Shown in pieces: positions 6,501 to 44,741 of a stretch of DNA of 64,000 bases; the stretch's first letter is position 1; every line of letters begins with the position of its first letter. Under the pieces are notes generated by a model. The model ran no database searches and had not been told where the DNA came from. It saw only the letters and a list, made by a program, of their open reading frames with translations. Origin of the DNA: Agelas oroides (taxonomy: Eukaryota; Porifera; Demospongiae; Agelasida; Agelasidae); the NCBI GenBank assembly GCA_949130485.1, contig OX422188.1, positions 5,623,807 to 5,687,806 on the forward strand, in the 5' to 3' direction. A program made the position numbers and the translations under genes.

Positions 6501-6804
6501 CGCATGTAACTGTAAGTAACTTACCATGGACGAGAATAGATCGTAAATGGTGTGAGCAATGTGCCGGTGTTCAGAGGTGATTCGGTGTGTGCATTTTCAT
6601 ACATAAAATTTTTCGCAAATTGCTGACGAACCACAAAAGTTGCGAAAGTGTTCTCCTGCAAAATCCCTGCTATACTGCAATCTCTTTATTATCATATCAG
6701 TATACTTACTTAGAACGAGTGGACACCAGTAAGAATTACTATTGATATACAAATATAAGGTATGATAGAATGCTTCTGAGAGCGTAGCTATGTACATGAT
6801 ACGC

Positions 6805-6845
<41 letters not shown>

Positions 6846-12074: not shown

Positions 12075-12116
<42 letters not shown>

Positions 12117-21855: not shown

Positions 21856-22292
21856 CTGCAACTATTGGCAAGCAAAGGTGAAAATAACATTCTATGACCG
21901 AGTGTATGTTTCATGTAATCCACTTTCATAGCTATTTCAGTCGTATGTCCACATACATGCTTCCATGTTGGTAGGCAAGTGATTCGAACAATTGTATGGC
22001 AAAGTTAATCTATGAGCTTGCTTTGAGGTACGGAGCATGCATTTAGTTTTAATTCAGATTATGCTAAGGGCTAGTAAGGATAAGCCTTGTTAAAACCATT
22101 GTTTCACCTCACAAGATTGTGGCATGATGTAATGCTGCAATATAAATGCACACCCTCCGTTATGCAGAAATCAGGGAACAATTCAACGTTTGTCATATTT
22201 GACTGCTCATGATATACGTTCACCAATGATGACACAGTTGCAGACATGCAACAAATTACATTGGTCATTTGGACAGACAGTGCACAGATGTA

Positions 22293-24547: not shown

Positions 24548-24803
24548 TCAAAGTGCAGTGTCTTCGGGATCATTTTCAGCCTGCGTGCCATCTTTCTTTG
24601 TATCATCTTTCTGTGGTTCATCTTTCTGTGTATTGTCTTTCTGCATGTCGTCTTTCTCTGTGCCATCTGTTTGTGTGTCATCCTCAGTTGGAGAGTCCAC
24701 AGTGGCAAGTTCATTTTGTACAACATATAGATTGTCTGGCTTCTCAAGCACAGAAGTATAGGTGAGCTGAACTTCACGGTAACTTTTCCAACGTTTGTGG
24801 ATG
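24548..24803 (-). CDS. Exon: acidic tail of copy 1, ending in a PDZ-ligand-like motif
   Basis: The exon starts at acceptor catgcag and completes a Cys codon from the TM exon. It encodes a basic juxtamembrane CIHKRWKSYREV, two tyrosine motifs (LTYTSV, NLYVVQ) and then an acidic repeat built on K/Q-K-D-D/N/E-T/P-Q. It ends EDTAL-stop, which fits a class I PDZ ligand (T-x-L). It has no similarity to the tails of copies 2 and 3. The 1.5-kb distance from the TM exon leaves room for an alternative terminal exon at 25423-25489. Confidence 0.6.
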
Positions 24804-27800
24804 CTGCATGGTATCATGTGTGTGTTTGTGTGTGTGGGGGGAAATGAGTGTGTAGGGGGGCAATTACTATTCCAAGTTTAAGCCACACCCAGAGATGCTC
24901 AAACAGTGATATCTTAGCTAAAACTTTTTAGGCTTGTGTACTACATATTCATAGTGCACTCAGGGTTGTGCTAGCCTTGTACCAGCACGCCTACCAGGCT
25001 AGGGTTGTGCAAGTTTTAACAGTTTACTGAGGTACATGACAGTTCACTTTGTGTGTGTGTGTGGTAGCCTCGTTCCAGCTTTCTGTCGCCTGCAGTACGG
25101 TAAAGCGGTTTTTCATTTGCGCACGGGGAGAGCCTGGGAATGAGGCTATGTGTGTGGTATGTGTGTGTGTGTGTGTTTGAGAGTCTTCTTGTTAAGGAGG
25201 GTGGCAGGGAACGTGTCCATTGCACTTTGAGTCAGTGAAAACAAGATCAATGATTTTTCTCTCTTATTCTTCTTTGGAGGCACTTGTTTGTATGTGATAT
25301 ACTATACAGAGTACTATCAAGCTGAGCTACCTGGTACCTAACTATACTGATATTGTGTATGCATGAATTTAACACAGTTTTGCTACTTTCTTTTAAAATT
25401 TACGGTTTATATTTGCTGGTCATCAGGGGAGTTCCCAGTCTGATTCAAACACAGGTTTCAGCTCCTTTAAACTCCCGACCTGTGGATGGCTACAGAAAGG
25501 GCGGAGCCACTCCCATATGTACATGGAGTCCAGCTCAGTCTGGTAGTTGGGACATGCTGCATGTGGGCTTGGAATATCTCACTACATGCGATCTTACACA
25601 TGCTTTGAGTCACCAGTCTTATGGTAGGTAAATGACTATAGACTGTCGCAGCTATTTGACCTTTAACTTGAATCTCTGAGAATCAAACGAGTACTTGAAC
25701 TATTGTTTTTGTTTACAGAAAGTAGTAGCAATGCCAGCAGTTATACTTTTATGACTTATCTCTTAGGAAGGCAATGGATGCTGCTAGATTCTAGCCTCGT
25801 TCCCAGGCCTTCCCCAGCTCCAGTTTTTGATCGCTCCGTTTTTGCATACTGCAAGTTGCATACTGCAAGCGATCAAAAACTGGAGCCGGGGAAGGCCTGG
25901 GAACGAGGCTAGCTAGATTCTTCTCTTTAGTTGAACTCTCTTCTTTCTCTTCTACATGTGACTGACTTTTTCTCATGATGTCATAGGTAGGATATATGAT
26001 ATGATTGCTAATTAGTTGGGTGTCGATCAATAATTGTTATCTACAAGTTGTGTGACTTATCTAATTTTGGTTAATGTTGTTATGTAGACTCAGAGAGAGA
26101 GAGAGAGAGTGTGTGTGTGTGTGTGTGTGTGCGTGTGTGTGTGTGTGCAGAGGAGGGTTGAGAAGTAAGGCGGGGGGGGGGGAGAAATACTGACTTGAAT
26201 CTCTTGAATTTACTACATGAGACTGCTGAGCTCTGTGTACATATCGATTCGCTGAATTTGGTTAAGATCATTGAGTAGTATATCTACTACTCATTGGTAG
26301 TGTTTCACATACTCACCAAAACAATATGCACAGTAGCAACAGTATCAGAACCAGCACAACCCCAAAGACAGAACCAGCAGCAATTGCTGCTATCACTCCA
26401 GGAGAAAGTCCAGTGGCAGTAGTTACAGCAGTGGTGGCAGTGGTGGCAGTAGTTACAGCAGTGGTGGCAGTGGTGGCAGGGACCACTCGAACAAATGTCA
26501 CTGCAGCAAATCCTGCAGCCATGTAGTCATTGGTACCACTCTGTAGGGAATGAAGGATAAACATAAGCAAGCAATCACTTAACGTGGGACCTGGTGTCAC
26601 TGATGTTTAACAGCCTGAAGTTCCTTATCTCTATAATTACTGTAAAAAGATAGAGGACAAGACACACACAAAAAAAATCGCACGGTTACCTGCACTGCAC
26701 TTTCAAGTACTTCAGCTGCTAACACTTGAGCTCCTCCTGCCACTTGTATGTACATCTCAAACTCCAACACTCCTTGAGCATTGTTTCTAATGTTGGTGAT
26801 GATTACATCACTTGGTTGGATCAGGGAAACTTGCCTCCTGAATGTAGATTGAGTGTGAGCAGCGGATGGGGAAAGGAAAAAGACAAAGATATGAAAGAAA
26901 TACACACCATCATAGCTCAAATGCATAATGCTGCTATGTGCACTTTACCTTGTCCTCACTGTCTGACGACACATTTCATTGTTCTCAGCACAGTATCTGT
27001 TGATAACTGTTGCAGTTGTGTTTCTCATTGCTTCTTGCGGTCCTTCAGTAAACTGCCAAGAATACAAATAGCAAATCTGAATGTGCAAATGCTAAGTGTA
27101 AAATGAATCTGACCCTTTTCATTGTGAAAACCTTTAAATATTAATAATTTATAGGCAGCAAGGAAATGTAATACATGTAGTTCAGCTAGCCTTGTTTCCA
27201 GGCTCTCCCGCTCCAGAATGCGAACATTGAAGTTATGCAGGCGGAGAGCAGAGAAGGTCGGACACGGTTGAACTTTACTAATTAAAATGGCTGAGGTCAC
27301 ACTAATTGATTTTTCGTACCTCAACAGACAACTCTCTCGACTTTTACTGAGGTGGGCCCCAGTTTTGAAATCAAGATTCAAGGCTGGGGACAGTTAAAAG
27401 TTAAAAAGCTTTCTACCTTGCAACATCCAAGATCAATTAGTGATGACCTCAGTTGTTTTAATTAGCAAAGGTCAACCATATCCAACCTCCTCTGGGCGGA
27501 GAGAGCCTGATATTTTTTCTCACGTGAGCAGCGTCAATAGTAGAAAGGGGGTAGAAAGACCTTAATTTTGTGTGGGCATACCCGAAGACTCAAACAGCGA
27601 AAAGAGTGAAGGCAATAGGTGACTTACTTCACATATATAGCTAGTGAGGGGCAAATATCCTACATACTGCAGTGGCAGATCTAGAAATTTAGAAAGGGGG
27701 GTTCAGTCACCAGCACGCGAAGCGTGCCGGAAATTTTTGGGTTGCCACGCCCACTTTCGGTCACGTGAACACATTCAAAAAAAATATAGCTGGAAGGCTG

Positions 27801-30800
27801 AACCGAAGGGTCCGTCACAAAAGAAATCTCGTACACTGTCCGACAGTGTTGTTTTAGTTAACTATAACTTTAACTAAATACATTTTAGTATGGCCTTTTT
27901 AAAATTTAGTTAACCAAAACTACAACTAACTATAACTAAAATATCCAAGAACATACAAGAAGAAACCTGTCGGCAGAAATCCAAACTGAAATCCAGAAAT
28001 CCACTCTGAAATCCGAAATCCACATGGATTTCGAAATCTCGTATGCCAAGGCGCGCTGTGGCGGACCCCTCGGGCCGAACTGAATATCTCGAAGCAACTC
28101 TAGGCCTAGTCAAACGTCTGGAGATCAGTAAGGAACTGATACTTGAGTGTGTAACTGTGCCTGGTTGTTGTTGCTGCATGCCACTGCTGCATAATCATTT
28201 GATGGATTCATGCAGTTATGTACGCAAAATACATCACTAGCCGCCAAAGGGGGGTGCATTTGCACCCCTCTTACCCCCCCTAAATCTGCCACTGTACTGA
28301 GCATTGAGTGTATAGTTGGATTAACAGCGTATAAAACATTGCCTTTCTGTTCTGAAAATTCTGTCCCTTTCGTCATGATCATGTGAGAAAAGATACCAGG
28401 CTCTCCCCGCGTATTTGTGTTTCAGTGCGGGGGAGCCTGGGAACAAGGCTATAGTTCAGCATTTTTCTAGACCAGTGTTTGACTACCATTAAGTCCACAA
28501 TGGAAGTATTCATGATTGTTCTTACATTCTCTGCAGTGTATTGAGGTAGGGTGACCCTCAGTGCATTATTGAGAACAATTTGTGTGGGTGTGACTGGGGG
28601 GGTAGAGGTGGGTGCAGCTGTGGCTGGACACAGCATATGTGGATGAAAGAAGATGGTCATGGTCAATGAAGTATATAAGCCATTAAAGAAGAGTTTCAGT
28701 CTAGGTTTACATAACTATTGATACTTAGACAACATTGCAATGATTACAATTAATGACCCTTCAAACTGAGTGCTTTGTATCCATGTATTGAAGTTATAAT
28801 GCATAACCACTAGGGGAATGTAGAACATTGTGGGGCAAGTGTGCATGAGCGAGCGATGCATTGAGTTGGCAAGTTAAGAGACTGCCTCGTGCTGACCTTT
28901 TTTTGTGAACACAGAACTTGGTTTCTCATGCATAGTCCTTACTTTCTAGACAATCTTGAAACACAGTGACTAACCAGGATATCTGCCACCTTCTGTGTTC
29001 TGTAAGTACCGTATCATAGTTTGTTTACGCAACTGCTTGCCCTCGTACAGTAGATGCTTATGCTCCAGCTTTCCCTCTTCGTAATTGCGTCTTCACTCAC
29101 GCTGAAACACTCATATATTCTTTCTGTCGTACATATGCCATATGTCTTAATCATGTCTTAATGCTGCGTTCGGACAAAAGTAAAATTTTCACTCAGCAAG
29201 TTGCAACATGCTAAGTGAAAATTTGTACTTTTGCTCAGTCATGCTTGCCCCAATTAGGCTTAAGGACAAAAGATGATAGGCCAAGTCCATGATTGCTACA
29301 CTCATAGTACATAATACTATGTGGTCAAGATGATGATGTTTAAAATGCGATCACTCCAGTGCACTCTTATGAATACAATTAAGTCTGCAAATCTAGGGAA
29401 ATTTGAGACCGGGTTGGATAAATCTTGTATACCAGGATAGCACAAAGCTGCAGGACATCTTACCAGAACAGTCACTCCCGGTGAACCCAGTGGGACAATC
29501 ACATATCTCTGTGCTAGTATTGAAAGTTCCACCATTTAGACACGCCAGTTCTGCACAGAAATAACATTCTTGTTAACACAACAATCATAACGCAAATGAC
29601 TAGGTACTGTGCATAGTGCAAGAGGACTGAACACACATCAAACTATTGCCACAACATGGAGACGTATAGGTTAGGTAGTTGTACAACTTAAACGTACGAC
29701 AGAAAGGTTCATTTCCAGACCACATTCCATCTGCCTGGCAGGTACGTGTCATGTTTCCAACAAGTAAATATCCATTGTTACAGGTATAAGTGGCCACTTG
29801 GTCCAAAGTCGTTCCCTGGGGAGTATTCACTCTACCATTGTCTGGATTGGTGAGTGCACCACAGTCAATAACTGAAGAGAGAGAAAAGGGTTTAAGTCGC
29901 TACATGCTATAAACAAATCACTCTAGTGCAATTAGGTCTGCATATGTAGGATACTATGGTCAAGATGATGATGTTTAAAATGCAATAAATAGATCACTCC
30001 AGTGCACTCTTATGAATACAATTAAGTCTGCAAATCTAGGGAAATTTGAGACTGGGTTGGATAAATCTTGTATACTAAGATAGCACAAAGCTGCAGGACA
30101 TCTTACCAGAACAGTCACTCCCGGTGAACCCAGTGGGACAATCACATATCTCTGTGCTAGTATTGAAAGTTCCACCATTTAGACACGCCAGTTCTGCACA
30201 GAAATAACATTCTTGTTAACACAACAATCATAACGCAAATGACTAGGTACTGTGCATAGTGCAAGAGGACTGAACACACATCAAACTATTGCCACAACAT
30301 GGAGACGTATAGGTTAGGTAGTTGTACAACTTAAACGTACGACAGAAAGGTTCATTTCCAGACCACATTCCATCTGCCTGGCAGGTACGTGTCATGTTTC
30401 CAACAAGTAAATATCCATTGTTACAGGTATAAGTGGCCACTTGGTCCAAAGTCGTTCCCTGGGGAGTATTCACTCTACCATTGTCTGGATTGGTGAGTGC
30501 ACCACAGTCAATAACTGAAGAGAGAGAAAAGGGTTTAAGTCGCTACATGCTATAAACAAATCACTCTAGTGCAATTAGGTCTGCATATGTAGGATACTAT
30601 GGTCAAGATGATGATGTTTAAAATGCAATAAATAGATCACTCCAGTGCACTCTTATGAATACAATTAAGTCTGCAAATCTAGGGAAATTTGAGACTGGGT
30701 TGGATAAATCTTGTATACTAAGATAGCACAAAGCTGCAGGACATCTTACCAGAACAGTCACTCCCAGTGAACCCAGTGGGACAATCACATATCTCTGTGC

Positions 30801-33800
30801 TATTATTGAATGTTCCACCATTTAGACACGCCAGTTCTGCACGCAAATAGTACATTCATGTTAACACAACAATCATAACGCGAATGACTAGGTACTGTGC
30901 ACAGTGCAAGAGGACTGAACACACAGGAAGACTGAACACACATCAAGCTATGCTGCCACACAGAGATGTATAGGTTAGGTAGTTATAGAAAGTAAACGTA
31001 CGACAGAAAGGTTCATTTCCAGACCACATTCCATCTGCCTGGCAGGTACGTGTCACGTTTCCAACCAGTAGATATCCATTGTTACAGCTATAAGTGGCCA
31101 CTTGGTTGAAAGTCGTTCCCTGGGGAGTATTCACTCTACCATTGTCTGGATTGGTGAGTGCACCACAGTCAATAACTGAAGAGAGAGAAAGGGTTCAAGT
31201 CGCTACATGCTATAAACAAATCACTCTAGCGTAATTAAGTCTGCATATGTAGGATACCATTAGGAATTTAAGACCTGGTTGGATACATAAACTCATATAC
31301 CAGGATAGTGCAGCACTGCAGGACTTCTTACCAGAACAGTTGCTCCCGGTGAACCCAGTGGGGCAATCACATATCTCTGTGCTAGTATTGAAAGTTCCAT
31401 TGTTTAGACACATCAGTTCTGCACACATATATTACATTCATGTTAACACAGCAACCATAATGTCACTGATTAGTCGCCATGCACAGTACAACAAGACTGA
31501 ACACACATCAATTGTTTTCAAAAATACATGTAGAACATATCTGCAGTGCTGTCAAGTGTTTTGTGTGTTTTTTTTGCATTGTAAACACATGGGAAGGTGT
31601 TCCATTTAACACACATTAGCTAGTGGTATTGAGAACTACCACTGCAATGGAGACATATAGGTTAGGTAGATCTAGCAAACATACGACAGAAAGGTTCATT
31701 TCCAGACCACATTCCATCTGCCTGGCAGGTACGTGTCATGTTTCCAACCAGTAGATATCCATTGTTACACGTATAAGTGGCCACTTGGTCCAAACTTGTT
31801 CCCTGGGGAGTATCCACTCTACCATTGTCCGGATTGGTGAGTGCACCACAGTCAATAACTGAAGAGAGAGAAAGGGTTCAAGTTGCTACATGCTATAAAT
31901 AAATCACTCTAGCGTAATTAATAGGATACCATTGGGAACCTGAGACCTGGTTGGACAAATCTTGTATACCAGGATAGTGCAGCACTGCAGGATATCTTAC
32001 CAGAACAGTTGCTCCCGGTGAACCCAGTGGGACAATCACATATCTCTGTGCTAGTATTGAATGTTCCATTGTTTAGACACTCCAGTTCTGCACAGAAATA
32101 TTACACTCATGTTAACACAATGAAAGCAAGCATGTTGCAATAAAGTGCAGGTCCAAGATTGTGCATGGAGTAATTTCCTAGCTTGATATTCACTGGCTAA
32201 TTTGCAGTGTGTAAATCTAGTATTGTGGATTTGTTTGCTGACTTAACTTGCATGCAGCCTGTGTTATTTCCTTACGTCATTCTTAATTTTGCATAACGCG
32301 GTACCTCTGCACCTTTTAACTATTAAGCTAAATTAAACCTATTACCGTAGATCGGGAAATTTTCGCCGTTAAAATATTTTCATTGGTGTGCGGGAGCGAC
32401 GAAAATTAAACACGCGAAAATAAAATATACGTATACATGCTACATTGCTGAACCGGCGAGCGACGAAATATTTTGACGTGAAAATTTAAAATGCAAGTTA
32501 TTTTTATCGTGATAATTTCCCGATCTACGGTAACTGCTGAATTGTTCTTCTAGAACTCAGTTTTAATCTGCAAATGAGGATACTATTGTGCATGTGAGAC
32601 TCAGTTTGCTAAATCTTGTACACCAGGCTAGTGCAAAGCTGCAGGACTTCTTACCAGAACAGTCACTCCCGGTGAACCCAGTGGGACAGTCACATATCTC
32701 TGTGCTAGTATTCAAAGTTCCACCATTTAGACACATCAGTTCTGCACACGAATTACATTCATTTTAACACAACAACCATAATGTGTACTAGGTACTGTGC
32801 ACAGTGCAAATGGACTAAACACACATCAAACTATTGCCACAATATAGAGATGTATAGGTTAAGTTGTAGAACTTAAACTTACGACAGAGAGGTGCAGTTC
32901 CAGACCACATTTCATCTACCTGGCAGGTACGTGTAACGTTTCCAACCAGTAAATATCGATTGTTACAGTTATAAGTGGCCACTAGGTCCAAAGTTGTTCC
33001 CTGGGGAGTATCCACTGTACCATTGTCTGGATTGGTGAGTGCACCACAGTCAATAACTGAACGATTCTGGAAGAGAAGTCAACACTTTAACAAGCCAGTC
33101 ATAAAGTTTTAGTGTGTTACTAGACTCTGACATGCTACTTTGTTGCAACCCATTAACCTTGTGTGCACTCATTCACAACTGTGTGCACTCAAAGCACTCA
33201 AAACTAGCATGAACTGATACATGGGTTCAAATGCATGTTCCACACAAGTTGTTGGCACATTAATTTACTGATGTAAGCTAAAGGACAAATATCCTACATG
33301 CAAAGCATATTGCAATAACATGCATTTCCAAAATTGCAGATCAATTTCCTAGCTTTACTGACTAGCTAGTAGTACATACATCAAGTAATGTGAATTTGTT
33401 TGCTAACTTAGATTGCATGCAGCCTGTGTTGTTTCTTGTAGTTGCTTAATTATGCCATTCTCACATAATATTAAAGGTACGTATTTGGAACACTTGAGCG
33501 TACCTCATTTTGACTTCAATTATGCTGGGATCTAGTTTTTGAAAATTCATCCAAAGGTATGCTCAGCAACTCTGAACAAATTTGTGACTCTAACCACACC
33601 TACTCGTTAGTGAGCTTTCGGTAGTCAAGGCTTGCAACAAACAAATGGTTTGTTCAGAACAAAAACTGCTTACAGTACTAGAAATGGAGCCTCTACAAGG
33701 TGAAAGAGACATTTTCTAAGCCCATTGGGGAAAGACATGTTTCACCCAACAATGATCAAGGCCTTTCTACAGCCCGCCACAACAGCTGCCATGTGCATAG

Positions 33801-35895
33801 CTTCCCATGCATGCCTAAATTAGCCTGCCTCTCCTATGTTCCTCAATTTCTGTATATACCTCCAAAGTGCATTGCACCACCCGTGAGGTCAAAGTAAGAT
33901 GATGCTTATAAGCGTCAAGAATAAGACTTAGGAGCTAGTAGAGGAATTGCAAAAGCAGTTTTATCGTTGTCACAGGGGTGTATGGGCCTACAGCTCAGTA
34001 GATTTTGCAAACTCTACACATTGACTCATTGACTTGTTTCATATCAACATGGAGATCTTTATGTACCGTCATTATTCAAATAGAACAGTAGGAAATTAAA
34101 TAATTTCAAATCTGGCTTCTGCTAGATTAGATTCACAAAACTACCAGGAACACAATTTCTTCTGTTGGATTAGATCTACCGCTGTAATGGAAGCACATTT
34201 TCCAAGAAAAACACTAGCCACGTGCGAGGCCTCTTTGTCCCAGGGAGTGTTGCTTGCAGTACTAAATTACCATAGGCATTCCCAGTAGTGTATAGGCTCC
34301 AGAAACTTCAATCGTCTGAGCATCCCGTTCTGTCTGCCAGCGATTATTCTCCGTACTTGTTTTGATAAGAACACGGTCTGGGTGCACTACAACGCCTCTG
34401 CAGTGACTTCACAAGCATTGCTTTGATAAGAACGCTTCCTGGTGCACTAAACAGACCCGTTCTGACCGTGACTTCGCCGTGTTTTGCTTTGCTAAGAACG
34501 CTTCGTGGTGTCTGCTACTACGCGCGCTCTTCCGCTAAATTGGATTTACTCGAAAATAATTTGTGCAGCTACCTTCCGAATAATTGGATTAACAAAAGTC
34601 GCAAAAATAGAATTTCTTCCGCCAGATTGGATCTACCATTCTATTAGAATAATGACGGTATCAACACCATTAAGTTATGATTGGTAATGCTAATATAACA
34701 TCTACTTACAAGTATTGGGCCTGCAACAGGATAGAAATATGTCAAGCGTTGCTGCACAGTAACAAACCTGAAAGATGAGACACACAGCATACATGCAAAC
34801 TGGTAAACTAATTAGCTCATCAATGTAGTCAATAGATTGTTGATTGAATATGGATGAGTGAACGTGACGTAAGCATGCTACCAATGAGACACAAATCTGC
34901 TACGTACCTCCAAATCTTCTCATAATTATGACCGTTTTCCTAAGTTAGATCATGACCATAAGGTTGTGTGGGCCCACTGACCTTTTTTTTTGGTTCGCAA
35001 AATGTGTTACAGTTTGACCGTGACTTTTTTTTACAAGCACGCATGATTAATAAATACTTACCAAAACTGAATCTGTTCTGGCAGTTGTAGGTACTCTTCA
35101 GATGAGCTGGGACGGGACGGAGCTTCCCAGTACAGGTCAAGAGACATGAGGTTATCAGGTAAATTCTGTGTAGCTGCATTCTGTTTAAATGTGCATGTGT
35201 TTGTATTGTGTGTACGTACATGTACATGTTGGCATGTTTTGTGTGTGTGTGTATGTGTGTGGAGTATGTATGTGTACTTTAATATCATGCAAAGACCTAT
35301 ACTCAAGTGTTGGTTAGTTTCATGATTATTATTCCGTTGTTCCGTTTGTGTTTTGTTCCCCACTACTATAGTATCTTACATCAAAGGGTCCTTCAGAGGA
35401 AGTCAGACTCCGATTGCATTCAACTGTGTGGTATGTGTCCATCTGGGTGACCCATGTCCCCCAGATGGTGCTCCCTGTGTCAAAGTCTTCAGTACTATTT
35501 CTTGCTTCTACCATGAAGCCCTCAAATGTAGAAGTTGAAGTGGAATTTAATTGCACTGCAGGGAGAAAAGGGACATGGATGAACAAAGAGAATACAAACA
35601 CACTATATACAGTCTACTCACAATGGTATGTTTGTCCAAACTGATAGGTTGTGTCCATGTCCATAGGAGTCAATGTATTCAATCTGCTACTTTCTGCATT
35701 CACTGTTCCCACCACTCTCAGCTCATATGGACATGCGTTGCCACATTCCATGGGAGACACAACATCCCCATCAAAATTGGTATGCATCACCAGCATGTTG
35801 TAGCAGGACTCTGATCTTGCTCCATCTCGGTAGCTCAGAGAGAGGGGTAGGTAGGTGAGGGTGAGAGAGGCCAGGAAGAGCACACTGAAGGGCAT
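24548..35895 (-). CDS. Reeler-sushi/EGF-SEA-like receptor, copy 1 (5 sushi, 6 EGF-like)
   Basis: Minus-strand exons in order: 35622-35895, 35380-35555, 35062-35165, 34710-34767 (Reeler); 32883-33066 CCP1; 32655-32741 and 32001-32087 EGF1-2; 31685-31858 CCP2; 31332-31418 EGF3; 31002-31175 CCP3; 30750-30836 EGF4; 30341-30514 CCP4; 30107-30193 EGF5; 29698-29871 CCP5; 29464-29550 EGF6; 28526-28623, 26949-27052, 26690-26837 (SEA-like); 26317-26540 TM; 24548-24803 tail. All junctions are AG/GT and the sum is exactly 947 codons plus stop. The start ATG at 35893-35895 opens a signal peptide (MPFSVLFLASLTLTYLPLSLS). It should be a type I surface receptor. The Reeler, SEA-like and TM parts match copies 2 and 3; the tail does not. 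Ligand and pathway are unknown. Confidence 0.8.
25065..25148. mobile_element. Short Mutator-like MITE, 84 bp
   Basis: TAGCCTCGTTCCAGC and (revcomp of the right end) TAGCCTCATTCCCAGGC ends, flanked by the 9-bp direct repeat tgtgtgtgg (25056-25064 and 25149-25157). It is the same family as 17383-17756. Confidence 0.8.
25423..25489 (-). CDS. Possible alternative short tail exon of copy 1
   Basis: At the position where copies 2 and 3 have their tail exon, copy 1 keeps the acceptor (ctttctgtag versus ctttatgtag) and the split Cys codon, but the exon sequence is unrelated. It reads CHPQVGSLKELKPVFESDW, then two or three residues and TGA at 25423-25425. Phase fits the TM exon, giving a total of 884 codons. 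It may be a real alternative terminus or a fortuitous open stretch left by recombination. Confidence 0.35.
25792..25911. mobile_element. Fold-back Mutator-like MITE, 120 bp
   Basis: Almost the full length pairs with itself: TAGCCTCGTTCCCAGGCCTT at the left, AAGGCCTGGGAACGAGGCTA at the right, continuing through ctccagtttttgatcgc. The 9-bp repeat gctagattc flanks both sides. Copies 2 and 3 carry the same insertion with a shorter loop (45045-45150, 59445-59550), so it predates the duplication. Confidence 0.9.
26089..26147. repeat. (GA)n(GT)n microsatellite with following poly-G
   Basis: Compound dinucleotide repeat followed at about 26171-26181 by a G run. Present in all three units (also about 45327-45382 and 59727-59782). 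Confidence 0.9.
26317..26540 (-). CDS. Exon: end of SEA-like module, Ala/Thr stalk, transmembrane helix (copy 1)
   Basis: It begins SGTNDYMAAGFAAVTFVRVV (last strand of the SEA-like fold), then an ATTATTAVTTATT repeat and the helix GVIAAIAAGSVFGVVLVLIL continuing LLLCILF. It ends in phase 2 at donor gtgagt. Copies 2 and 3 encode the same sequence. Confidence 0.85.
26690..28623 (-). CDS. SEA-like juxtamembrane module (three exons, copy 1)
   Basis: Exons 28526-28623, 26949-27052 and 26690-26837, completed by the start of the TM exon, give a beta-alpha-beta-beta-alpha-beta pattern: ALRVTLPQYT; FTEGPQEAMRNTTATVINRY; SDVIITNIRN; GVLEFEMYIQV; QVLAAEVLESAVQ; FAAVTFVRVV. This is the SEA/ferredoxin-like order next to a membrane, as in mucins and the Notch heterodimerisation domain. 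The GSxxV autocleavage motif is absent, but RTRR|QV, a furin-type site, is formed across the junction of the second and third exons. Assignment to SEA is by pattern, not by alignment. Confidence 0.5.
27187..28451. mobile_element. Mutator-like MITE (about 635 bp) split by a nested element
   Basis: TAGCCTTGTTTCCAGGCTCT and (revcomp of the right end) TAGCCTTGTTCCCAGGCTCC ends, with the 9-bp TSD tagttcagc on both sides. Copies 2 and 3 have the uninterrupted element (46412-47047, 60812-61447). It lies in the intron inside the SEA-like module. Confidence 0.85.
27670..28294. mobile_element. CAGTGGCAGATC transposon, 625 bp, unique to copy 1
   Basis: The ends CAGTGGCAGATCTAGAAATT and (revcomp) CAGTGGCAGATTTAGGGGGG are inverted repeats, flanked by tactg duplicates (27665-27669, 28295-28299). 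Copies 2 and 3 show the empty site acatactgaacattg at 46895 and 61295, proving insertion. The ORF-like text inside is not a recognisable transposase. Confidence 0.9.
29464..30836 (-). repeat. 643-bp tandem repeat units carrying CCP+EGF exons
   Basis: Units offset by exactly 643 bp (29600, 30243) encode identical CCP5 and CCP4, and EGF6, EGF5 and EGF4 follow the same spacing with few changes. Introns are as similar as exons, so expansion is recent. Confidence 0.9.
29464..33066 (-). CDS. Expanded sushi/EGF-like array of copy 1
   Basis: Order is CCP1-EGF1-EGF2-CCP2-EGF3-CCP3-EGF4-CCP4-EGF5-CCP5-EGF6. Each CCP (about 58 residues) has four cysteines and the late Trp: IDCGALTNPDNG, VATYNCNN, RTCQ, MWSG, then C. 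Each EGF-like exon (29 codons) reads CLN-N/G-GT...EICDCPTGFTGS-N/D-C, with four rather than six cysteines, so it is a truncated EGF fold. CCP1 starts in phase 0 through an earlier acceptor (ttccag|AATCGT) that joins the Reeler exons. All later exons are 1-1. A CCP appears to be missing between EGF1 and EGF2. Confidence 0.85.
32343..32532. mobile_element. TA-flanked MITE in the copy 1 array
   Basis: TACCGTAGATCGGGAAATTT at the left and AATTTCCCGATCTACGGTA-type sequence at the right are inverted. TA at each outer edge. About 190 bp, with an inverted gagcgacgaaa/cgaaaat interior. It lies between EGF1 and EGF2 and has no counterpart in copies 2 and 3, which lack this part. Confidence 0.75.
33067..34709. 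other. Intron between Reeler and first sushi exon (copy 1)
   Basis: No gene recognised. The sequence recurs at 48479-50121 with very few differences, and its first part at 62879-64000. Open frames at 33700-33897 and 34423-34647 recur only because the DNA is duplicated. Confidence 0.6.
34710..35895 (-). CDS. Reeler domain with signal peptide (four exons, copy 1)
   Basis: After a 21-residue signal peptide the domain reads YRDGARSESCYNML, CPYELRVVG, MDTTYQFGQTYHC, FEGFMVEARN, TYHTVECNRSLT, LDLYWEAPSR and FWFVTVQQRLTYFYPV. The order G-A-x-S-x-C, then F-x-G-F-[ML]-[VL]-x-A-R and a late L-x-L-x-W-x-A-P is the Reeler (reelin N-terminal) signature, about 150 residues. Reeler domains occur in extracellular matrix and defence proteins. 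Exons 1-4 encode the same protein sequence as copy 2. Confidence 0.75.
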
Positions 35896-36306
35896 CTTGT
35901 GCCTAAGTTAGTCTGTCAATCCAACTCTGTATGTGTACATATATTGACACTTCAAATGACACGAGTATGATGTGAAACTTGTCAGCATGAGTAACTGTAA
36001 AATTAATGAATTCAAATATTGACACCCTAAATGCAACTATAGACAACCTGTATTGGTCCACACCAAACTGGCCAGCAATACAGACATACATACATATGTG
36101 ACTAAAGCATTTGTAGAACAAGCAGTGGCTATCTGAATACTGTGTTACTGTTATACGTGTAATCAAAGTGAAAGCATAACCTAAAATGTTGCTAGTTTAT
36201 CGCTAGTTTGTCAAGGTTATCAATACATTGTAATGGTGTTTGTACACATGCAGCTTGATATCAGTATGGTGTACACGCTTCAGTTAACTCAACACAGCCC
36301 TATTAA
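35896..36306. other. Upstream region of copy 1
   Basis: Expected to hold the promoter and 5' UTR of the minus-strand gene. I see no TATA or CpG-rich element that I would defend. It is repeated at 51308-51719. Confidence 0.3.
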
Positions 36307-36432
<126 letters not shown>

Positions 36433-36786
36433 GGTTTGTGGGGAGGTGGGGGCATACCTCTAAATTAACCCAATAACCATTCTCTAATAGTAGGCTATGG
36501 ATACCTTCCATATTTCAGCTTCTGCTTGGAGCTAGCACTGGAAACTTGAGTTCACCTTCCTCTATTTCGCCTCAAAACATCTAAAGTCTCTTTATTCCAA
36601 TGCAATGCAAGAGTTCTAAGCATTCAGACTGAGAAAACCACACAGCATGGGCTCTCTCCTGATGGAAAGAATTTTCCGAGTTCTGATGACACATACTGAG
36701 TGGCTGCTGGGTGTGCGACTGAGGCATTTCAGTCCCACCTGTAATGTACACATATATAGAGGATTGTGATGGGCGCTGGTTATCCA

Positions 36787-36858
36787 GTTGTCATAGCTCA
36801 GTGGCAGAGCACTGACTGCACAAGCCAGGGTGTCCTGGGTTCGATTCCCGGCAACTGC
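36787..36858 (+). tRNA. tRNA-Cys-like sequence, probably pseudogene or tRNA-derived repeat
   Basis: It has both internal promoter boxes: A box TAGCTCAGTGGC and B box GGTTCGATTCC. A good D-arm (GCTC/GAGC) and T-arm (CTGGG/CCCGG) are present, and the anticodon loop CTGCACA gives GCA (Cys). The seven-base acceptor stem (GTTGTCA against CAACTGC) pairs poorly and the anticodon stem is irregular, so a functional tRNA is doubtful. The minus-strand ORF over it (AGNRTQDTLACAVSALPLSY) is the usual artefact of such sequences. Confidence 0.35.
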
Positions 36859-37537
36859 CGGCCTTTTCACTTTTCTCTATTTTCGCCTCTAAATTCTCTT
36901 TAGCTACACCCACTCAATAGTGAACTTTCAATGGTCAGGGCTTTGCGACCAGCAAATGCCCCTCCTAACTGAAAACTGCCTATAGTTCTAGAAATGTTGC
37001 TTCTACAAGGGGAAAGGAGTGGTTTCTATGCATGCCTGTTTGTGCTAACAAAGTGAGAAATTGTCCAGCCAGTGCCAACCAAGGCCATTTTACAGCCATT
37101 CAAGATGTGCATGGCACCCCGTGCTGAACACCCACACACATCCCCTACCCTACCCTTTTTGCTAGCATAAAACCTATCTTCAAAACAGATTGTGATAACA
37201 TGCGGCCAAAGTCAGACAACACCAAATGGCATCATCAGTGGTTAAAAGGGTTAAGCTACTATACTGTGTGCTTGCTAGTAGGCTTACCTGGTATTTATTT
37301 TGTTTTCATAGCCTAATTGTGCTTGGAGTAATTTGTATAGTCAAACATCCATACTATTTGGGGGAGGCAGACGCTCACTTGAGTGGAATGTAACCGTACT
37401 CTATTCAGATCACTCAAGCATTAGAGTCTAATGATAAACAGCACTAGCTAGCTAACTCTATATGAAATTTCATAGTGGTAATTTGTACATGGAGCAGTTA
37501 GTACATGTACATGCAGCAGTTAGGCCTGATGAAGATT

Positions 37538-37562
37538 GCTATCTATCTATCTATCTATCTAC

Positions 37563-37644
<82 letters not shown>

Positions 37645-37645
37645 T
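37538..37645. repeat. (ATCT)n tetranucleotide repeat
   Basis: About 26 units. The homologous site near 52930 has only about three, a large length difference between units of the array. Confidence 0.95.
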
Positions 37646-38557
37646 TGTCTGTCTAGTAAATAAAAATGTTTATACATCATCATATGACACGTGGATACAG
37701 TTATGTCCAACAGCAACTGTCAAGTACACTATATAGCTGTATAAACCTTGTCTTCAATATGTGTACATGAAATGCTTCAGTTGCACACCCGGCAGCCACT
37801 CAGTATGTGCCGTCAGAACCTTGCCTAGCATCATAGTATAAACAGCACTGGATTGACCCAAGTACAATCTCGGATTCTCCTTTGGTTACAGAGTATCACT
37901 TTTGGTCCGAGGAAGCTTTTGGATATACTTCAGCTCAGCACATCACGGCAAGGCCATGCAACTTACATTAGACATATAAATTACTTTTCAATGACTTGAT
38001 TAGCTTCTAATGATCTTGAAACAACATTATTGGAGAAATGGGTGCCAGTTTCCACATTCTGCGTCATTTTGGCGGGCTTAATAGCTACTGTTAGTTACGC
38101 AATACAAGCATTACTAAAGAGGAGTCAGATAACACATAATTATGGTTAATGGGTAAATGGTTGACGGTTGTGAGTAATAGTTTGTTTTCCACGACTGACC
38201 CCTTCTATATTAACGCCAACGGAGCGTCAACAGTGCTTTAGTTTGTTGCTATTGGTACACGTTCCCTAGAGGGCGAAGCTATTAATTTTGCGGTGGTGCA
38301 CCGTAAGTCGGGGAAGCCAAACGATCCCCGCCTTTGAATTACACAATCACCAAAGAACCGTCTAAGTTAAACCTTTACAAACTGGAACTAAATTGAATAC
38401 ACTCACTTGCTCCAAAGGACTACTGTAGCTAGCTGTGACAAGATGTTTATTTTCCACGTTCCGGTGAAACCTGACTCCCCTACTTTTTGGTGCCCCCGTG
38501 CAAAATTTCCTAGGATTTACGGTACCCGCGCAAATAATCTAAGGAAGTGCCCAGACC

Positions 38558-39014
38558 TAGCCTCGTTCCCAGGCCCTGCGCGTTCGTCGCTTGCAGTACG
38601 AAATTCGCGCAGAGGGCCTGGGCTCGTTCATCACGTGATGTGTGCCGCAGCTTACGTCACGTCCATTCTACCTATAGGCCTAAGTGCTAAAGCTGCCATG
38701 TTTAGCTGGATAGTAGACGTCTATATTCAGATACCTTGCCACATCGTGTTACTAGGTCGACCCTGGATTTCGGCTCCTCGTCTTCTTCAGCTTGAGTTTA
38801 CTATTGTAGTCTATCGTACGCGCGTGACCTGTTTCAGGTTCTTCCAACTCCATTTGTGGTTATCTCTACAACCAATGCTGCAACACGGCGCGGCCATATC
38901 TGGTGTGACGTAAAATTACGGCTGCGGCACACATCACGTGATGAACGAGCCCAGGCCCTCTGCGCGAATTTCGTACTGCAAGCGACGAACGCGCAGGGCC
39001 TGGGAACGAGGCTA
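38558..39014. mobile_element. Mutator-like MITE with about 100-bp TIRs, unique to this unit
   Basis: TAGCCTCGTTCCCAGGCCCT and (revcomp) TAGCCTCGTTCCCAGGCCCT ends pair for about 100 bp, through tcacgtgatg and beyond. The 9-bp TSD gcccagacc lies at 38549-38557 and 39015-39023. The next unit has the empty site aagtgcccagacccccttcg near 53807-53826. The sequence between the TIRs has no recognisable product. Confidence 0.92.
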
Positions 39015-39159
39015 GCCCAGACCCCCTTCGACAAAAACCGAAGGGGCCTGAACATGAGACTAACCTAGCAAAACAGAACAGCAAAACTCATGCACTTCTC
39101 AAGCAAATCTCGGTTGCCTATCAATCGACTTAAAATAGAGGAAAATTCCATGGGTTACC

Positions 39160-39640
39160 CAGGGGACTGCATGATTTAAGTCACCCTTCCCATGGGTGTC
39201 TCATGGGACTGATTTAAGTCACCAGAATCCATGGAACACCCATGGGAACGTTTTAAGTCACTACAGCCTAGGTGACTTAAGTTGCCTAGTGTGCCGTGAT
39301 ATACTACTCTATCCTACTTCTCTTGGGACCATTTTAAGTCAAGTCACCAAAGAGTACGCCTCTGTCACCTCAGATCATCAGAGTACGTCCCTACTGATTA
39401 CCAACTCTGGCAAAATCATCCCCATGAATAATATTCCACACACTATTTCATGGGACCAGATTAAGTCCAAGTATGCCCCTGTCATCTCACATTATCAGAG
39501 TAAGTCCCTGCCAATTATCATGTCTCTGGCAGCCATGAGTAATACACTCCACTGGTGGGACAATTTTAAGTCAAGTTTTGAAGAGTATGTTTCTGTCATT
39601 CTACCTCATCAAAGTAAGCCCCTGTCGATTACCAAGTTAC
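39160..39640. repeat. Degenerate tandem repeat with ttaagtca motif
   Basis: gggac...ttttaagtca recurs roughly every 35-100 bp, with catggg blocks. The diverged counterpart lies at about 53900-54370. The open frame 39196-39744 over it is not credible as a gene. Confidence 0.6.
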
Positions 39641-39889
39641 TTGCATCATTGACTATATATGTTGCAACGCAGCAGTCCTGCATTAAGAATACTGTAATAC
39701 CGTGCAGTCCCACTTCCAGAGTTTTGTTGAACTGTATACCGTAGCAGTGTAGTACTGCAGTCCTGCATGCTTCCAGAACAATGCGCTCCACATCCAGAGA
39801 ACTGTTGTACATGTACAGTAACTTTAGACTATTGCAGTGCTACAGCCCCACCTCCATGCAGAGTACTGTAAATAGCAAATATACAATTT

Positions 39890-40280
39890 TATAGTACCTT
39901 AACGAGCAATGGCACTGCTACAGGCCTATACAGCCCCACCCCCACAGTAGGCACTGCTACAGGCCTACAGCCCCACCACCACAGTATTGTACCACCTTTA
40001 CAGTACCTTAACGAGCAATGGCACTGCTACAGGCCTATACAGCCCCACCCCCACAGTAGGCACTGCTACAGGCCTACAGCCCCACCCCCACAGTAGGCAC
40101 TGCTACAGGCCTACAGCCCCACCCCCACAGTATTGTACCACCTTTACAGTACCTTAATGAACAATGGCTGGTACAGGCCTACAGCCCCACCCCCACAGTA
40201 CTGTACCACCTTTACAGTACCTTAATGAACAATGGCTGGTACAGACCTACAGCCCCACCTCCATGGTATTGCAGCACAGT
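39890..40280. repeat. Nested tandem repeat, ggcactgctacaggcctaca units
   Basis: Units of about 37 bp (tacaggcctacagccccacc plus a spacer) are nested in larger units that add an accacctttacagtacctta block. The counterpart at about 54655-54990 differs in unit number and order. Confidence 0.85.
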
Positions 40281-40747
40281 TCTGATATAGAGGATATACA
40301 GCTTCACCTCCAGAGTACTAAAGCACAGTCCAAGAAATTGCTCATAAAATCACAATAGTGAAATCTGGGAAGCATGACATGTAAGGAACATAAAGTAGCC
40401 TTGCAATTATCAAAGGTCTTCAACTAAATTAGGCACAGTTCTTAAACAATATGTGTTACTCGTCAGATGCTAATAACTGGGCTCAGTGGTGGATGAGGTT
40501 CAATCACCTTGCTATGCAATGTATTCCACCAAAGTATATATATATATGGGATATGACTATATACAAATGCTGTAGAGTGCAGGGATGAAAAGAAACAAAA
40601 ACAACCTATCCCGTTTAAAATGGCTATTTCTCCAAGGTAGATTTTGTTAAGCATATTGCTGCAGAATCAGCTGCGGTGTATGTATTTCCACAGGGACAGA
40701 AGTGAGACAGCAAGGCATTCCACAGCTCAAACAAGGCAAAGCCCGGG

Positions 40748-40998
40748 CAGTGTGGTTTTAGTTTACTGTTTACACTAGTAGTTTAATTAGGCTAGAGATT
40801 CAAATTGTTAGTCTATCGATTAATCACTAAATCTAAAAAGGGTTACTTTTAGTTGTAGTTAACTACCATTTTTGGGTGAGTGGTTTAGTTGTAGTTTTAA
40901 TTAGGTAATGGACTAAGGCAGCATCAATTTTAGTTTTAGTTTTAATTACTAAAAGATTCATCCCTTACTAAGATGCATGATTAACTAAAACAACACTG
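40748..40998. mobile_element. Possible MITE with CAGTGTGGTTTTAGTT ends
   Basis: CAGTGTGGTTTTAGTTTAC at the left and (revcomp) CAGTGTTGTTTTAGTTAATC at the right are inverted. The interior is rich in tagttttagtt and ttaattacta. Similar text occurs near 560-690 and 27850-27950. The target duplication is not clear. Confidence 0.4.
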
Positions 40999-41842
40999 GG
41001 CAAAGGTAACATCTTACTAAGCTTTATCCTCACACTCTGTAATGTACAGTCGCTACAGTATATTTTTTACTGTGTGTTTAAAAACCACTGGGAATTAATG
41101 TGTCCTTACCCGCCTGGTACAAGTATCATACTCAAGTTGATCATTTCAATGTCTTTTGTTATGAAATTTTACTTTTACAAAGTGCTTACGGTTGCTTTCT
41201 TTAGTATGTTGTTCCGGAGGCTGAGGCTGAGAGGTACCTAGTCGAAAATTGATCAAATCTTTCAGAATCAGAAGGAGATGAGTAGGAAAGGCATGGAGAT
41301 GGAGTTGCTCCTCACTGAGTGCCTGCTATCCCTAAGAAAGGTGTTTAATTTATAAGCCCCAAAATTGCACTCATGGATTTGTAATTACCAAGTTTGTTTT
41401 TCGTGCATGGGCAAGTAATTGGAGAGAGCCTCGCCACTCTCTGCCCTGACCAATAGCGCGAGTTAGCCTTGTGTTTTAGCTTCTCGGGCTGAATATTAGT
41501 GTTGCTTACGTAGCCCACTTGCAATCCTCTTGTCCTTCCAAGCGTGCCCATGCAGTATTTGTATGAACAACTTTGATTCACTCTCTCCTTGTGGGGTAGG
41601 CCTCACAGCGCTATTAGCGGCAGCCCTAGCTTTAGAACATTATGAATGAATTCTGTGTAGCTGCATTCTGTTTAAGTGTGCATGTGTTTGTGTTGTGTGT
41701 GCGTGTATACATGTTGTAAAGATGCATGTTTATGTAAGTGTGCAGTCCATGATATACACTCCATCAGTGTATGCTTTAGAGGATCTGTTTAGTATGCGAT
41801 TTTATGAGCAGCTGCTGGAATACAGTCCTTACATAACTATAC

Positions 41843-42620
41843 TTCAAAAGGTCCTTCATTGGAGTCTAAACTTCGATTGCACTCAACTGCATGGTACAGG
41901 AAGTCATTTAGACCATACCCAGACCTCACTTGGTTTGGATGAGTACTCTCGTGTGTCTCAACCATCAAATGTAGCAGTTGTAGCAGAAATTATTATTGCA
42001 CTATAGAGATATTATTAAACACATGCCAAAAAATAGGCGCAAAGAGAGTACATATACATTATAGACTAAAAGGTGCTAGCTACATACATAAACTCCTCAA
42101 GTTCACACAATTGAAAACCTGGAACATGTAAAGAAGCATTCCTAATCTCCCTGATTAGACTAGCCAGAGCATTATCAGAGTTACAATACACCTTAACATG
42201 CCTGAAACCAAAACAACAATTATAACAAAAGGACCAGGGAAAAGATGCAGCAACAGAAAATACATATATTAATATGAACAAACAGAATGACAGGAACAAA
42301 CACACCACAGAATACAGAGAGGAATTAAAGAACATACTTTTACTCCATACAGTCTAATTACAATGATGTGTTTTTCCACACCAATAGGTTGTTTCCAATG
42401 GGGCCAAACGATAGTCTGCAAGCACCAAAAGAATTGTGACTTCATGGAGTACTTGCACTATGTTTATTAGGGTAGACTTGTTCCCAGGCTCCTCTTGGGA
42501 ATGAGGCTACTTTATGTTACAACAAATGACTTACCTTGTCGTGATCATAATAGAAGTGTTTGGTAGGTGTTCTGACTGATGACAGCAAGGCATGGAATCT
42601 TGGATCATGGTACAGATAAC
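41843..42620 (-). pseudogene. Relic of a Reeler-type gene
   Basis: 41843-42000 aligns with Reeler exon 2 of the array genes: MVETHEST, then DFLYHAVECNRSLDSNEGPF against TYHTVECNRSLTSSEGPF. Its first in-frame codons are CAA TAA, a stop. 42362-42415 matches the end of exon 1 (LAPLETTYWCGKTHHC against TPMDMDTTYQFGQTYHC) with splice sites still present, and a further exon-like piece ends with donor AAG|GTAAGT at about 42541. No later exons were found, so this is a decayed, more diverged family member. Confidence 0.7.
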
Positions 42621-43331
42621 CGATTAAGGGAGTGGAGACATGTGCAAAGGTCTATACAGCTAGCTAGCTATATATGTGCACTTGTAATTAATGTAATCTG
42701 GAAAAAGTGAAATACCACATGAATACATCATGTTACCTTATTTTAGAGGAAGTTCAAAATGACCTACATAACCGGAGAGTTTACTCCTTTCCTGTTGGCA
42801 TCCACATCTACGTGAAGTGGTCTGTCAGGACCCTTAAAACAGTGGTTGAAACTTTGAAGATAAGCTCAGACTAAATTAATTTTTAAGGGTTAACTGCAGT
42901 GGCACGTGAGAAGTACTGGTGCATGAGGTATGAAGTGCATAAGTGAGCGGGATCGATCATCGATCCTTAGCCATTAATGCTCTAATTGTAGTATAAGTGA
43001 TTTCAGTAGATGATGGGTCCATGAAGAGCACAGAGTGAAGTATTCACCAGAGCTAGTGTAGAAGTATATAACCACTAATACCAGGCACTTCTCTGTGATT
43101 TACAAGTACTAGGGTACAAGACTATAGGCTACCAATGTATGCTTCCACTGGACATAGACAGTATAAGATTTAGTGGGGAATCTTCAGGTACTAGAATCTG
43201 ATTCATTTAGGATACACAAATGTATCATAGGTCACATTGAGTGGATAATTCAATGTATTATGCCCTTCAGTTTGCAATTTCTAACAAGATCCAGTCAGCA
43301 CACAGGATGTTAAAAGGTTCAGAACAAAAAT

Positions 43332-44130
43332 GTGTGTAAATTACACCCTATAATAGTATGCGTCCCTTCTGGCTGCAGTTCACAAACTGATCTTGATGTT
43401 GCACAGGCAACCATGCATGGTCAGTCTCTGTCACCACATCCTGGAGCTAACTACTGGGTGCATGTACCTAATACTATTGAAATGCTCCAGTTATTTAGCA
43501 GCTCTATAGCCCTCCAGTATAGGCCCAGCTGTCCCCCCAAAAGGAGAGCTGTTGCTTACAATAAATAGGTTGTGACCACAAGTCTTGCATACTGATTATA
43601 CTGTAGGATTGAAAGGGTGTTGTCAAGAATTCATAACAGTAAGAGCACTAAACTTCATGTTAATTACCCTACACAACTAGATTGGGCTAGTGCTAACAAT
43701 GACAGTCTGAATCCTCATCATGTCATGCTCATTACTCAGGCACATGTCAACAGCCCATCACGGCATGTACAAATTAACTTCAATACATTGATGATAGCTG
43801 GGCAGATATGTTTTACTCTCAGACAACTGACCATTGTGTGGTTTGGAAATGAGACTAAAGTAAATAACATTTTGGTCAGAATGTGTTCACGGTGAGTGTA
43901 GCAGTATTATTGCATCTGCATGACCATCTAGACCAAGCAAAGAAATGCTGCCAAATTACTGACAGTGTACCCACCATGCACTACAGCGAGGCTTGATATT
44001 GTGGGTGGACAAACAGTGTCTGTAGCACTTGATTTAGCTGAAATTACCCATACTGTCTGGTTTACAAGGTACCTCAACTTTGAAGGGAGTCGTCACAGTT
44101 GCTGGCATTGCAGTTATTTGGATTTGTAAA
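43332..44130 (+). other. Exon-like plus-strand open stretches of unknown nature
   Basis: 43374-43568 follows a good acceptor (ccttctggctgcag) and reads LDVAQATMHGQSLSPHPGAN. 43617-43895 reads LRQLTIVWFGNETKVNNIL and ends at donor tgttcacg|gtgagt. About 44008-44068 reads LDIVGGQTVSVALDLAEITH then TVWFTR, and the next bases can encode a hydrophobic segment (GVVTVAGIAVIWI). The pieces do not join in one frame. They may be a decayed receptor gene. Duplicated exactly at 57738-58530. Confidence 0.25.
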
Positions 44131-44437
44131 TCAGCAATACTAAGTTGACTAGCCTTGTTCCCATGCTTCTCCATACCATTAATTTTCTGAATGCAGCAGC
44201 ATGATTTCAATAAGAGAATTTCAAATAGCTTTGTGCCCATACAGGCTCCTGAATTTGAAGAGTATAAAAATCACAAATTCCATTCTCTACTTGCTGAGAG
44301 TGATAATCAATCAACAGGTAAATAGTTTTAATGCACATACATTGTTCTATAAGAGTGCACACAAAAACTCTATATAAATTGTGAAGAATGTGCATTTGCA
44401 CCTATGAAGTTTTTTTTTGTTTTTTTTTGTTTTTTGT

Positions 44438-44461
44438 GGGGGGGGGGGGGGGGGGGGGGGG
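44438..44461. repeat. Poly-G run
   Basis: 24 G here against 18 G at 58844-58861. It is the only difference I could see across about 6.6 kb between the two units. Confidence 0.9.
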
Positions 44462-44569
44462 TGCATTTACTTAAACAATTAATTGTTCTGAGAACACCTT
44501 CATTGTGTTATAAATGGACGGAAATACTAAAAGGAAAACCAGTTATGAACAGCAAGGTGGGAAGTCAAA

Positions 44570-44741
44570 TCAGTGCTGTGCAGGTCCATATGCCACATTT
44601 TCTCTCAGCTCAATCCTCTGTACAGGCTCATAAGCCACGTTCTCTCTCAGTTCAATCTCTGTCCCACTGGTGATAGGAATCTCACGCTTTGGGTCTGCTT
44701 GCACTTCCTCATACACTGGATCTGTCTGTTGCTGTTGGTGG
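44570..44741 (-). CDS. Exon: tyrosine-motif tail of copy 2
   Basis: The exon completes the split Cys codon of the TM exon and reads CHQQQQTDPVYEEVQADPKR, then a tandem pair IELRENVAYEPVQR / IELRENVAYGPA and a stop. VYEEV, AYEPV and AYGPA are SH2-docking-like. There is no stretch of basic residues directly after the membrane. Unrelated to the copy 1 tail. Confidence 0.8.

Follow-up and report, generated by a model that had tools for sequence, protein, structure and literature searches.

A tandem sponge receptor gene probably joined in frame to the cytoplasmic tail of a receptor family from another chromosome

For the mammalian CEACAM and KIR receptors, exchange of tails through unequal crossing-over has been proposed, which is a one-step route (PMC2110893). 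Host-transposase fusion genes form by means of splice sites located within a transposon (Cosby et al. 2021, as reported in PMC8290160). In a sponge, exposure to microbial patterns alters the expression of genes that carry Sushi, EGF-like and Reeler domains (PMC6208332). We analyzed a stretch of 64,000 nucleotides from the sponge Agelas oroides, further called the window (C6:5623807-5687806, within a 259-Mb assembly of 141 contigs), in which three receptor genes, copies 1 to 3, lie in tandem on the minus strand. The genes are built of a signal peptide, Reeler, Sushi and EGF-like domains, a stalk and a transmembrane (TM) part. Copies 2 and 3 have the ectodomain and TM exon of copy 1, and their last intron starts as in copy 1, whereas their tail and 3' flank match a large receptor cluster on chromosome C1. 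We estimate the probability at about 80% that copies 2 and 3 are a DNA chimera, in which a gene of the copy 1 type acquired a C1-type tail in frame.

The genes and their tails are located as follows.

26317 to 35895, minus strand: exons 1-19 of copy 1, with signal peptide, Reeler, five Sushi, six EGF-like, stalk, an unnamed domain and TM (gene model; Reeler and five Sushi stretches in Pfam)
26317 to 26540, minus strand: TM exon of copy 1, identical to that of copy 2 at 224 of 224 nucleotides
24548 to 24803, minus strand: copy 1 tail exon of the putative native type, with basic juxtamembrane stretch, LTYTSV, YVVQNELA, KDD repeats and DTAL end (in-phase model; relative in gene 5; ATTAAA at 24525)
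44570 to 51307, minus strand: copy 2 gene, with signal peptide, Reeler, one Sushi, one EGF-like, stalk, the unnamed domain, TM and the probably captured tail (gene model, Pfam)
44570 to 44741, minus strand: probably captured tail exon of copy 2 (HQQQQ..YEEV..ENVAYEPV..ENVAYGPAQH), stop codon at 44572-44570, relatives on C1
43992 to 44569, minus strand: 3' untranslated region and 3' flank of this tail, of C1 type (local alignment to the C1 locus L027)
59132 to 62878, minus strand: 3' part of copy 3 from the Sushi exon on, the 5' part lying beyond the window
58970 to 59141, minus strand: tail exon of copy 3, the same as in copy 2 (by sequence)

The model of copy 1 has 20 exons and 952 amino acids and that of copy 2 has 11 exons and 547 amino acids, both without an internal stop; in copy 3 the frame stays open from the Sushi exon through the tail. 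The TM exons (26540-26317, 45774-45551 and 60174-59951 in copies 1, 2 and 3, respectively) all end in phase 2 at gtgagt, and tails of both types enter in phase 2, in frame with the TM. In Pfam, copy 1 matched Reeler, Sushi in five stretches and EGF-type domains, and copy 2 matched Reeler and one Sushi domain. An EGF match was not found by Pfam in copy 2, where the EGF-like label rests on likeness to the exons of copy 1, and the stretch between stalk and TM did not match any Pfam family. Between copies 1 and 2 we counted 3 codon changes in 811 nucleotides from the signal peptide through the first Sushi exon, and 7 in 572 nucleotides from the stalk through the TM. The Sushi-EGF exon pairs of copy 1 at 29314-31257 are tandem duplications of approximately 643 nucleotides with 95% identity; the ectodomain is thus changing in length, besides the tail.

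Self-BLAST of the window aligned copy 1 with copies 2 and 3 at 94-98% in blocks up to 25480/44732 and 25480/59132, where the homology ends. The block reaching the break has 95% identity over 2203 nucleotides, gaps included, and beyond it there were no matches of at least 120 nucleotides between the two 3' ends. The original prediction, made from the letters of this DNA, had placed the stop at the acceptor of the last exon, 25489 against 44741; our break lies 9 nucleotides inside these positions. Its claim of matching TM exons followed by divergent tails was confirmed as well, with full TM identity between copies 1 and 2 and both tail exons in phase. The further claim that the copies share the same ectodomain parts held for the kinds of parts and failed for their number, as copy 1 has five Sushi and six EGF-like exons and copy 2 has one of each.

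Copies 2 and 3 share 99.3% identity across 7.8 kb, with a period of 14.4 kb, and no differences were observed in 1017 exonic nucleotides. They are a single recent duplication, and therefore we count them as one observation and not two. The exonic identity would also be expected if an assembler had made the junction or the duplicate, or if copies 2 and 3 were dead, unexpressed chimeras. We consider this quite unlikely, since the junction occurs twice on a contig of 10.5 Mb, a difference of 0.7% separates the 7.8-kb blocks, a further flank copy with 97% identity lies beyond the window, and the reading frames are open.

The tail of copy 1 reads CIHKRWKSYREVQ, continues into KDD repeats and ends with EDTAL, with the stop codon at 24550-24548. 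Splicing from 26317 to 25489 instead would give a predicted short tail, CHPQVGSLKELKPVFESDWELP. The assignment of 24548-24803 to copy 1 was upheld: the phase, the ATTAAA 23 nucleotides past the stop and a relative in gene 5 which likewise starts with CIH speak against this exon being part of another gene. Contig C6 holds two further genes of the family past the window, genes 4 and 5, with tails at C6:5699989-5700207 (ending LQEIVTAL) and C6:5709455-5709703 (ending IQEVVTAL). The tail of gene 5 starts with CIHNTYISYK and that of copy 1 with CIHKRWKSYR, at the same place. An L[TS]Y.. stretch and a TAL end, which we take to be PDZ-ligand-like, are present in copy 1, gene 4 and gene 5, and neither is found in copies 2 and 3. 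A small local search matched the tails of copy 1 and gene 5 with E 1e-7 and gave a paralog on C20, whose tail ends with VQEV, as a weak relative (E 0.001); the tails of genes 4 and 5 matched with E 1e-6 in a whole-genome search. Position, exon start and TAL end carry the case, and they support the view that the native tail of the family is of the TAL type seen in copy 1.

The tail of copies 2 and 3 reads CHQQQQTDPVYEEV, followed by ENVAYEPV and ENVAYGPAQH and then a stop. With this tail as a query, 86 of 88 matches at E<=10 were located on C1 and the other 2 were the window copies (all 88 candidates scored). When a C1 TM plus tail was the query and 150 of its 162 candidates were scored, E<=0.001 was reached by 131 matches, of which 127 were on C1 and 2 on C6, the latter being the window's own. 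Many of the weaker matches span mainly the TM part, and matches do not equal genes, as two C1 frames of 433 amino acids were counted several times. These two frames (C1:20570819-20571934 and C1:20788797-20789912) are open and contain several consecutive ENVAY units, so the motif has been amplified inside single C1 genes. The two C6 matches begin at residue 27 of the query, past the TM and the juxtamembrane part. In all 12 C1 loci that we read, out of 28 fetched, the TM, a basic juxtamembrane stretch and the tail start lie within one open frame (in L027 the frame breaks further downstream). The tail exon of copies 2 and 3 starts at HQQQQ, which is internal to this C1-type exon. A Sushi domain scored above the cut-off in 2 of 6 scanned pieces upstream of C1 ENVAY tails.

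The likeness to L027 runs, with gaps, past the stop to about 43992; the local alignment of 43992-44739 to L027 scored 438, and the maximum in 20 shuffles was 54. The captured C1-type fragment is about 750 bp long, of which about 580 bp lie past the tail stop. Because the similarity to L027 extends past a likely poly(A) signal at 44332, we suggest that DNA was copied rather than message alone. The closest C1 tail is that of L011 (C1:8686258), a locus other than the 12 read above, with 91% identity over 149 nucleotides. At about 960-1475 of the L011 locus lies an insertion with inverted ends (CAGGGCCGTAGCCA / TGGCTACGGCCCTG), which falls within a few codons of the start of the C6 fragment. This insertion interrupts L011, which we do not claim as the donor, and an Ig match in L011 lies 3' of the tail and was not counted.

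The opposite direction, in which the ENVAY tail would be ancestral and copy 1 would have acquired the acidic one, could draw on two facts: two of the three window copies carry the ENVAY tail, though these are one duplication, and the copy 1 tail is just weakly like those of genes 4 and 5. We regard this direction as highly improbable. Tails of the copy 1 type occur in genes 4 and 5 and weakly in the C20 paralog, ENVAY tails elsewhere belong to C1 receptors, and a repeat in the last intron runs unbroken in copy 1 but is truncated in copies 2 and 3. The features of this repeat and of the junction are as follows.

25149 to 26147 (ends approximate), no strand given: dispersed repeat, approximately 1 kb long, within the last intron of copy 1, continuous over the break (aligns with L004-L008 and 39 other places)
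25791 to 25912, no strand given: palindromic element of about 120 nucleotides inside the repeat, common to all three gene copies (self-inverted match; the repeat halves abut there in other copies)
44732 to 45385, no strand given: the same repeat in copy 2, cut at the junction (alignment)
44732 to 44744, minus strand: junction and most likely acceptor, with pyrimidine tract and TAG (44744-44742) derived from the repeat

In copy 1 the repeat continues past the break to about 25149; its end in copies 2 and 3 is at 44732 and 59132, respectively. When the best 40 of 679 candidates were scored, a choice that favours long copies, all 39 other long matches (query 25149-25792) crossed the break position in one piece; five short pieces adjoin four of them. 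Comparison of the repeat in copies 1 and 2, with gaps left out of the count, gave 304 identical bases among 310 aligned in one stretch and 171 among 171 in another. The other repeat copies listed have 90-92% identity over the first of these stretches, and because the identity between copies 1 and 2 is above this value, the repeat in both is the same insertion, inherited from their common ancestor. Its copy number points to a transposon, or mobile-element-like sequence. Rfam gave matches to the palindrome and one weak SCARNA7 match, all below gathering scores, which we took as noise.

The sequence across the join in copy 2 is CTCCGCCCTTTATGTAG|CCACCAACAGCAACAG. At this position the repeat reads CTCCGCCCTTTCTGTAGCCATCCACAGG, and the C1 exons read TCCCACCAACAGCAGCAG (L012, L013) or CTTACCAACAGCAACAG (L011), so that the microhomology at the join is 3 or 1 nucleotides, depending on the C1 gene compared. 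The break falls in a many-copy repeat, which would suit a swap of tails by homologous recombination between full repeats, one in the copy 1 intron and one neighbouring an ENVAY gene. Such an exchange should leave the repeat on both sides; in copies 2 and 3, however, the repeat abuts a C1-type exon, the join has just 1-3 nucleotides of microhomology, and the repeat was not found in the fetched C1 tail loci, approximately 1.5 kb on each side, the small palindrome excepted. We therefore hold this swap very unlikely. The idea of one module connected to different tails by recombination in the last intron was right in that one module is joined to two unrelated tails; the rearrangement does not look like one between homologous introns, as the break is in mid-repeat on one side and in a C1-type exon on the other.

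The C1-type sequence, which starts past the juxtamembrane part, adjoins a mid-repeat position within the last intron, and we propose that GGCTCCGCCCTTTATGTAG of the repeat would serve as the acceptor by which the TM exon is spliced in phase to the captured fragment. The AG and pyrimidine tract ahead of 44741 are repeat sequence, and all five other repeat copies that we fetched have the same acceptor core, in which copies 2 and 3 carry A for C at one base. Among 93 AGs of the last intron and tail exon, four are open to the ENVAY stop (44819, 44741, 44666 and 44615), having 9, 13, 11 and 10 pyrimidines per 20, respectively. These properties make 44741 the likely, repeat-derived acceptor of the captured tail.

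The chimera could have arisen by the following inferred route. First, a C1 fragment would have inserted between gene 1 and gene 4, which is upstream of the ancestral gene. Tandem duplication of the stretch from the repeat in the last intron of gene 1 to the middle of the C1-type exon would then create copy 2 at once, with the fragment meeting the repeat at the right edge of the duplication, and a later 14.4-kb duplication would yield copy 3. Alternatively, the C1 fragment may have been inserted directly into an already duplicated gene. A third copy of the captured flank is present at C6:5694234-5696976, where it adjoins gene 4, with 97.3% identity to the copy 2 flank; it stops at the ENVAY stop codon or within about 10 nucleotides of it. 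In locus L081 (C6:5696500-5702500), at about 460-1150, the flank end meets a sequence which by eye resembles a retroelement integrase fragment. The flanks of copies 2 and 3 differ in the orientation of a segment of approximately 200 bp (41633-41829 vs 56049-56244), the third flank copy having the arrangement of copy 3, and a fragment resembling the edge of a Reeler exon lies at 41670.

Several points weigh against the chimera as described above, or against parts of it. The one-step route predicts that the remainder of the C1 fragment accompanies the third flank copy, where it is missing, and a single locus duplicated in the assembly could account for copies 2 and 3. In L011, the closest tail, tail and TM are separated by the insertion, and 2 of the 131 TM-plus-tail matches are off C1 and C6, one on the small contig C113 and one, with a stop, on C16. 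On the side of the native tail, copy 1 and gene 5 are weakly similar genome-wide (E 0.25 and 0.11), copy 1 is linked to gene 4 solely via gene 5 and the TAL end, and the C20 tail was not among the matches of the whole-genome search. The remaining points concern the acceptor. On a matrix of 18 acceptors of copy 1, which is biased as it contains mostly repeated Sushi/EGF intron copies, 44741 scores low, 0.28 (the own tail acceptor of copy 1 scores -0.76). The top-scoring AGs, 45101 (10.27) and 45118 (6.33), sit in the inserted palindrome and have no open frame to the tail. The sites 44819, 44666 and 44615 are alternative in-phase acceptors, 44666 with a score of 1.18, and use of 44666 or 44615, in C1-type sequence, would make the contribution of the repeat unnecessary.

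The chimera may consequently be real with 44666 or 44615 used as the acceptor, or with the intron retained, the repeat being the break site only. This possibility agrees with our explanation on everything except the acceptor. Retention would give a tail-less receptor, as the intron begins with TGG TGA right past the TM (W, stop). Besides the higher matrix score of 44666, we considered that the pyrimidine tract of 44741 is better, with 13 against 11 of 20, and that 44741 preserves the C1-homologous frame from the junction onward. Such a variant is unlikely in our opinion, though it deserves more weight than the other alternatives.

With 44741 as acceptor, the Reeler-Sushi-EGF sensor would be kept and its output would pass through C1-type tyrosine motifs in place of a PDZ-ligand-like tail. 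Relative to copy 1, three tail features have been lost in copies 2 and 3, namely the acidic repeat, the TAL end and the basic juxtamembrane stretch; YEEV and two NVAY repeats have been added. A change of partners would be the likely effect, from PDZ-type scaffolds to such SH2- or PTB-type proteins as may serve C1 receptors. Loss of the basic residues after the TM could weaken anchoring. The original prediction also supposed a split between activating and adaptor-binding tails. We did not find support for such a simple split or for an activating/inhibitory pair: each tail has three tyrosines and one match (LTYTSV in copy 1, VAYEPV in copies 2 and 3) to [SIVL]xYxx[ILV], which we assume to define the immunoreceptor tyrosine-based inhibitory motif (ITIM) type, and the TM read from sequence has no charged residues. 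Among 2000 shuffles, a single match was equalled in 9.9% for copy 2 and in 5.3% for copy 1, and at least one was present in 8 of 10 C1 tails taken. YxxI/L had no matches in either tail.

The locus provides a nearly base-level view of how a receptor output can change while the sensor stays, from the donor family and the acceptor gene to the break point, the likely splice site and the amplification that followed. If expressed, copies 1 and 2 would be a natural pair, with closely similar ectodomain and different tail, for testing the function of animal receptor tails. A bolder thought is that ENVAY is a portable cassette and the repeat, with its ready acceptor, a docking site for any in-phase tail, rewiring being recurrent. 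We consider this speculative and rather doubtful; if true, one sensor would be wired to two pathways in the same genome.

The window also contains other features. A 14-bp repeat array of roughly 65 units lies at 22279-23192, with all three plus-strand frames open (MGDTRWETQDGRHK). The remaining ones were read by eye: two long open frames of 373 and 992 amino acids at 7958-12009, which look like a retrotransposon without long terminal repeats with an endonuclease; and plus-strand open frames at 2082-18338, perhaps of one gene, resembling NIDO and FN3 domains and, at 17910-18338, a tyrosine-rich tail with YDTM, YEVV and YETV.

In titles and abstract openings of the literature, covered in part, we did not find tail capture in receptors of this kind; known processes are combined here in a way not found in that survey. 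The likeness is greatest to the C1 ENVAY receptors of the same genome, which share the tail sequence, the HQQQQ start, two NVAY-type repeats and the 3' flank. Those receptors have TM, basic juxtamembrane stretch and tail in one exon, whereas the C6 chimeras are without the juxtamembrane part. As in host-transposase fusions, an intronic element would offer an acceptor and thus a fusion protein; in contrast to them (PMC8290160), the captured coding part is a host receptor tail and not a transposon-encoded domain. The repeat would contribute at most the acceptor and a few nucleotides. The mammalian CEACAM and KIR paired receptors resemble the sponge genes in their near-identical ectodomains, differing signalling tails and clustered genes (PMC2110893), though here the numbers of Sushi and EGF exons differ. 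Copies 1-3 do not show the opposition of an ITIM to an immunoreceptor tyrosine-based activation motif or charged TM that is known from paired receptors. TM and tail exons of CEACAM and KIR are described as moving together (PMC2110893), whereas in the sponge genes the TM stays and the tail alone changes; also unlike CEACAM and KIR, a different chromosome holds the donor family and the break falls within a repeat. In summary, tail exchange in the sponge would have taken place across chromosomes and not within one cluster.

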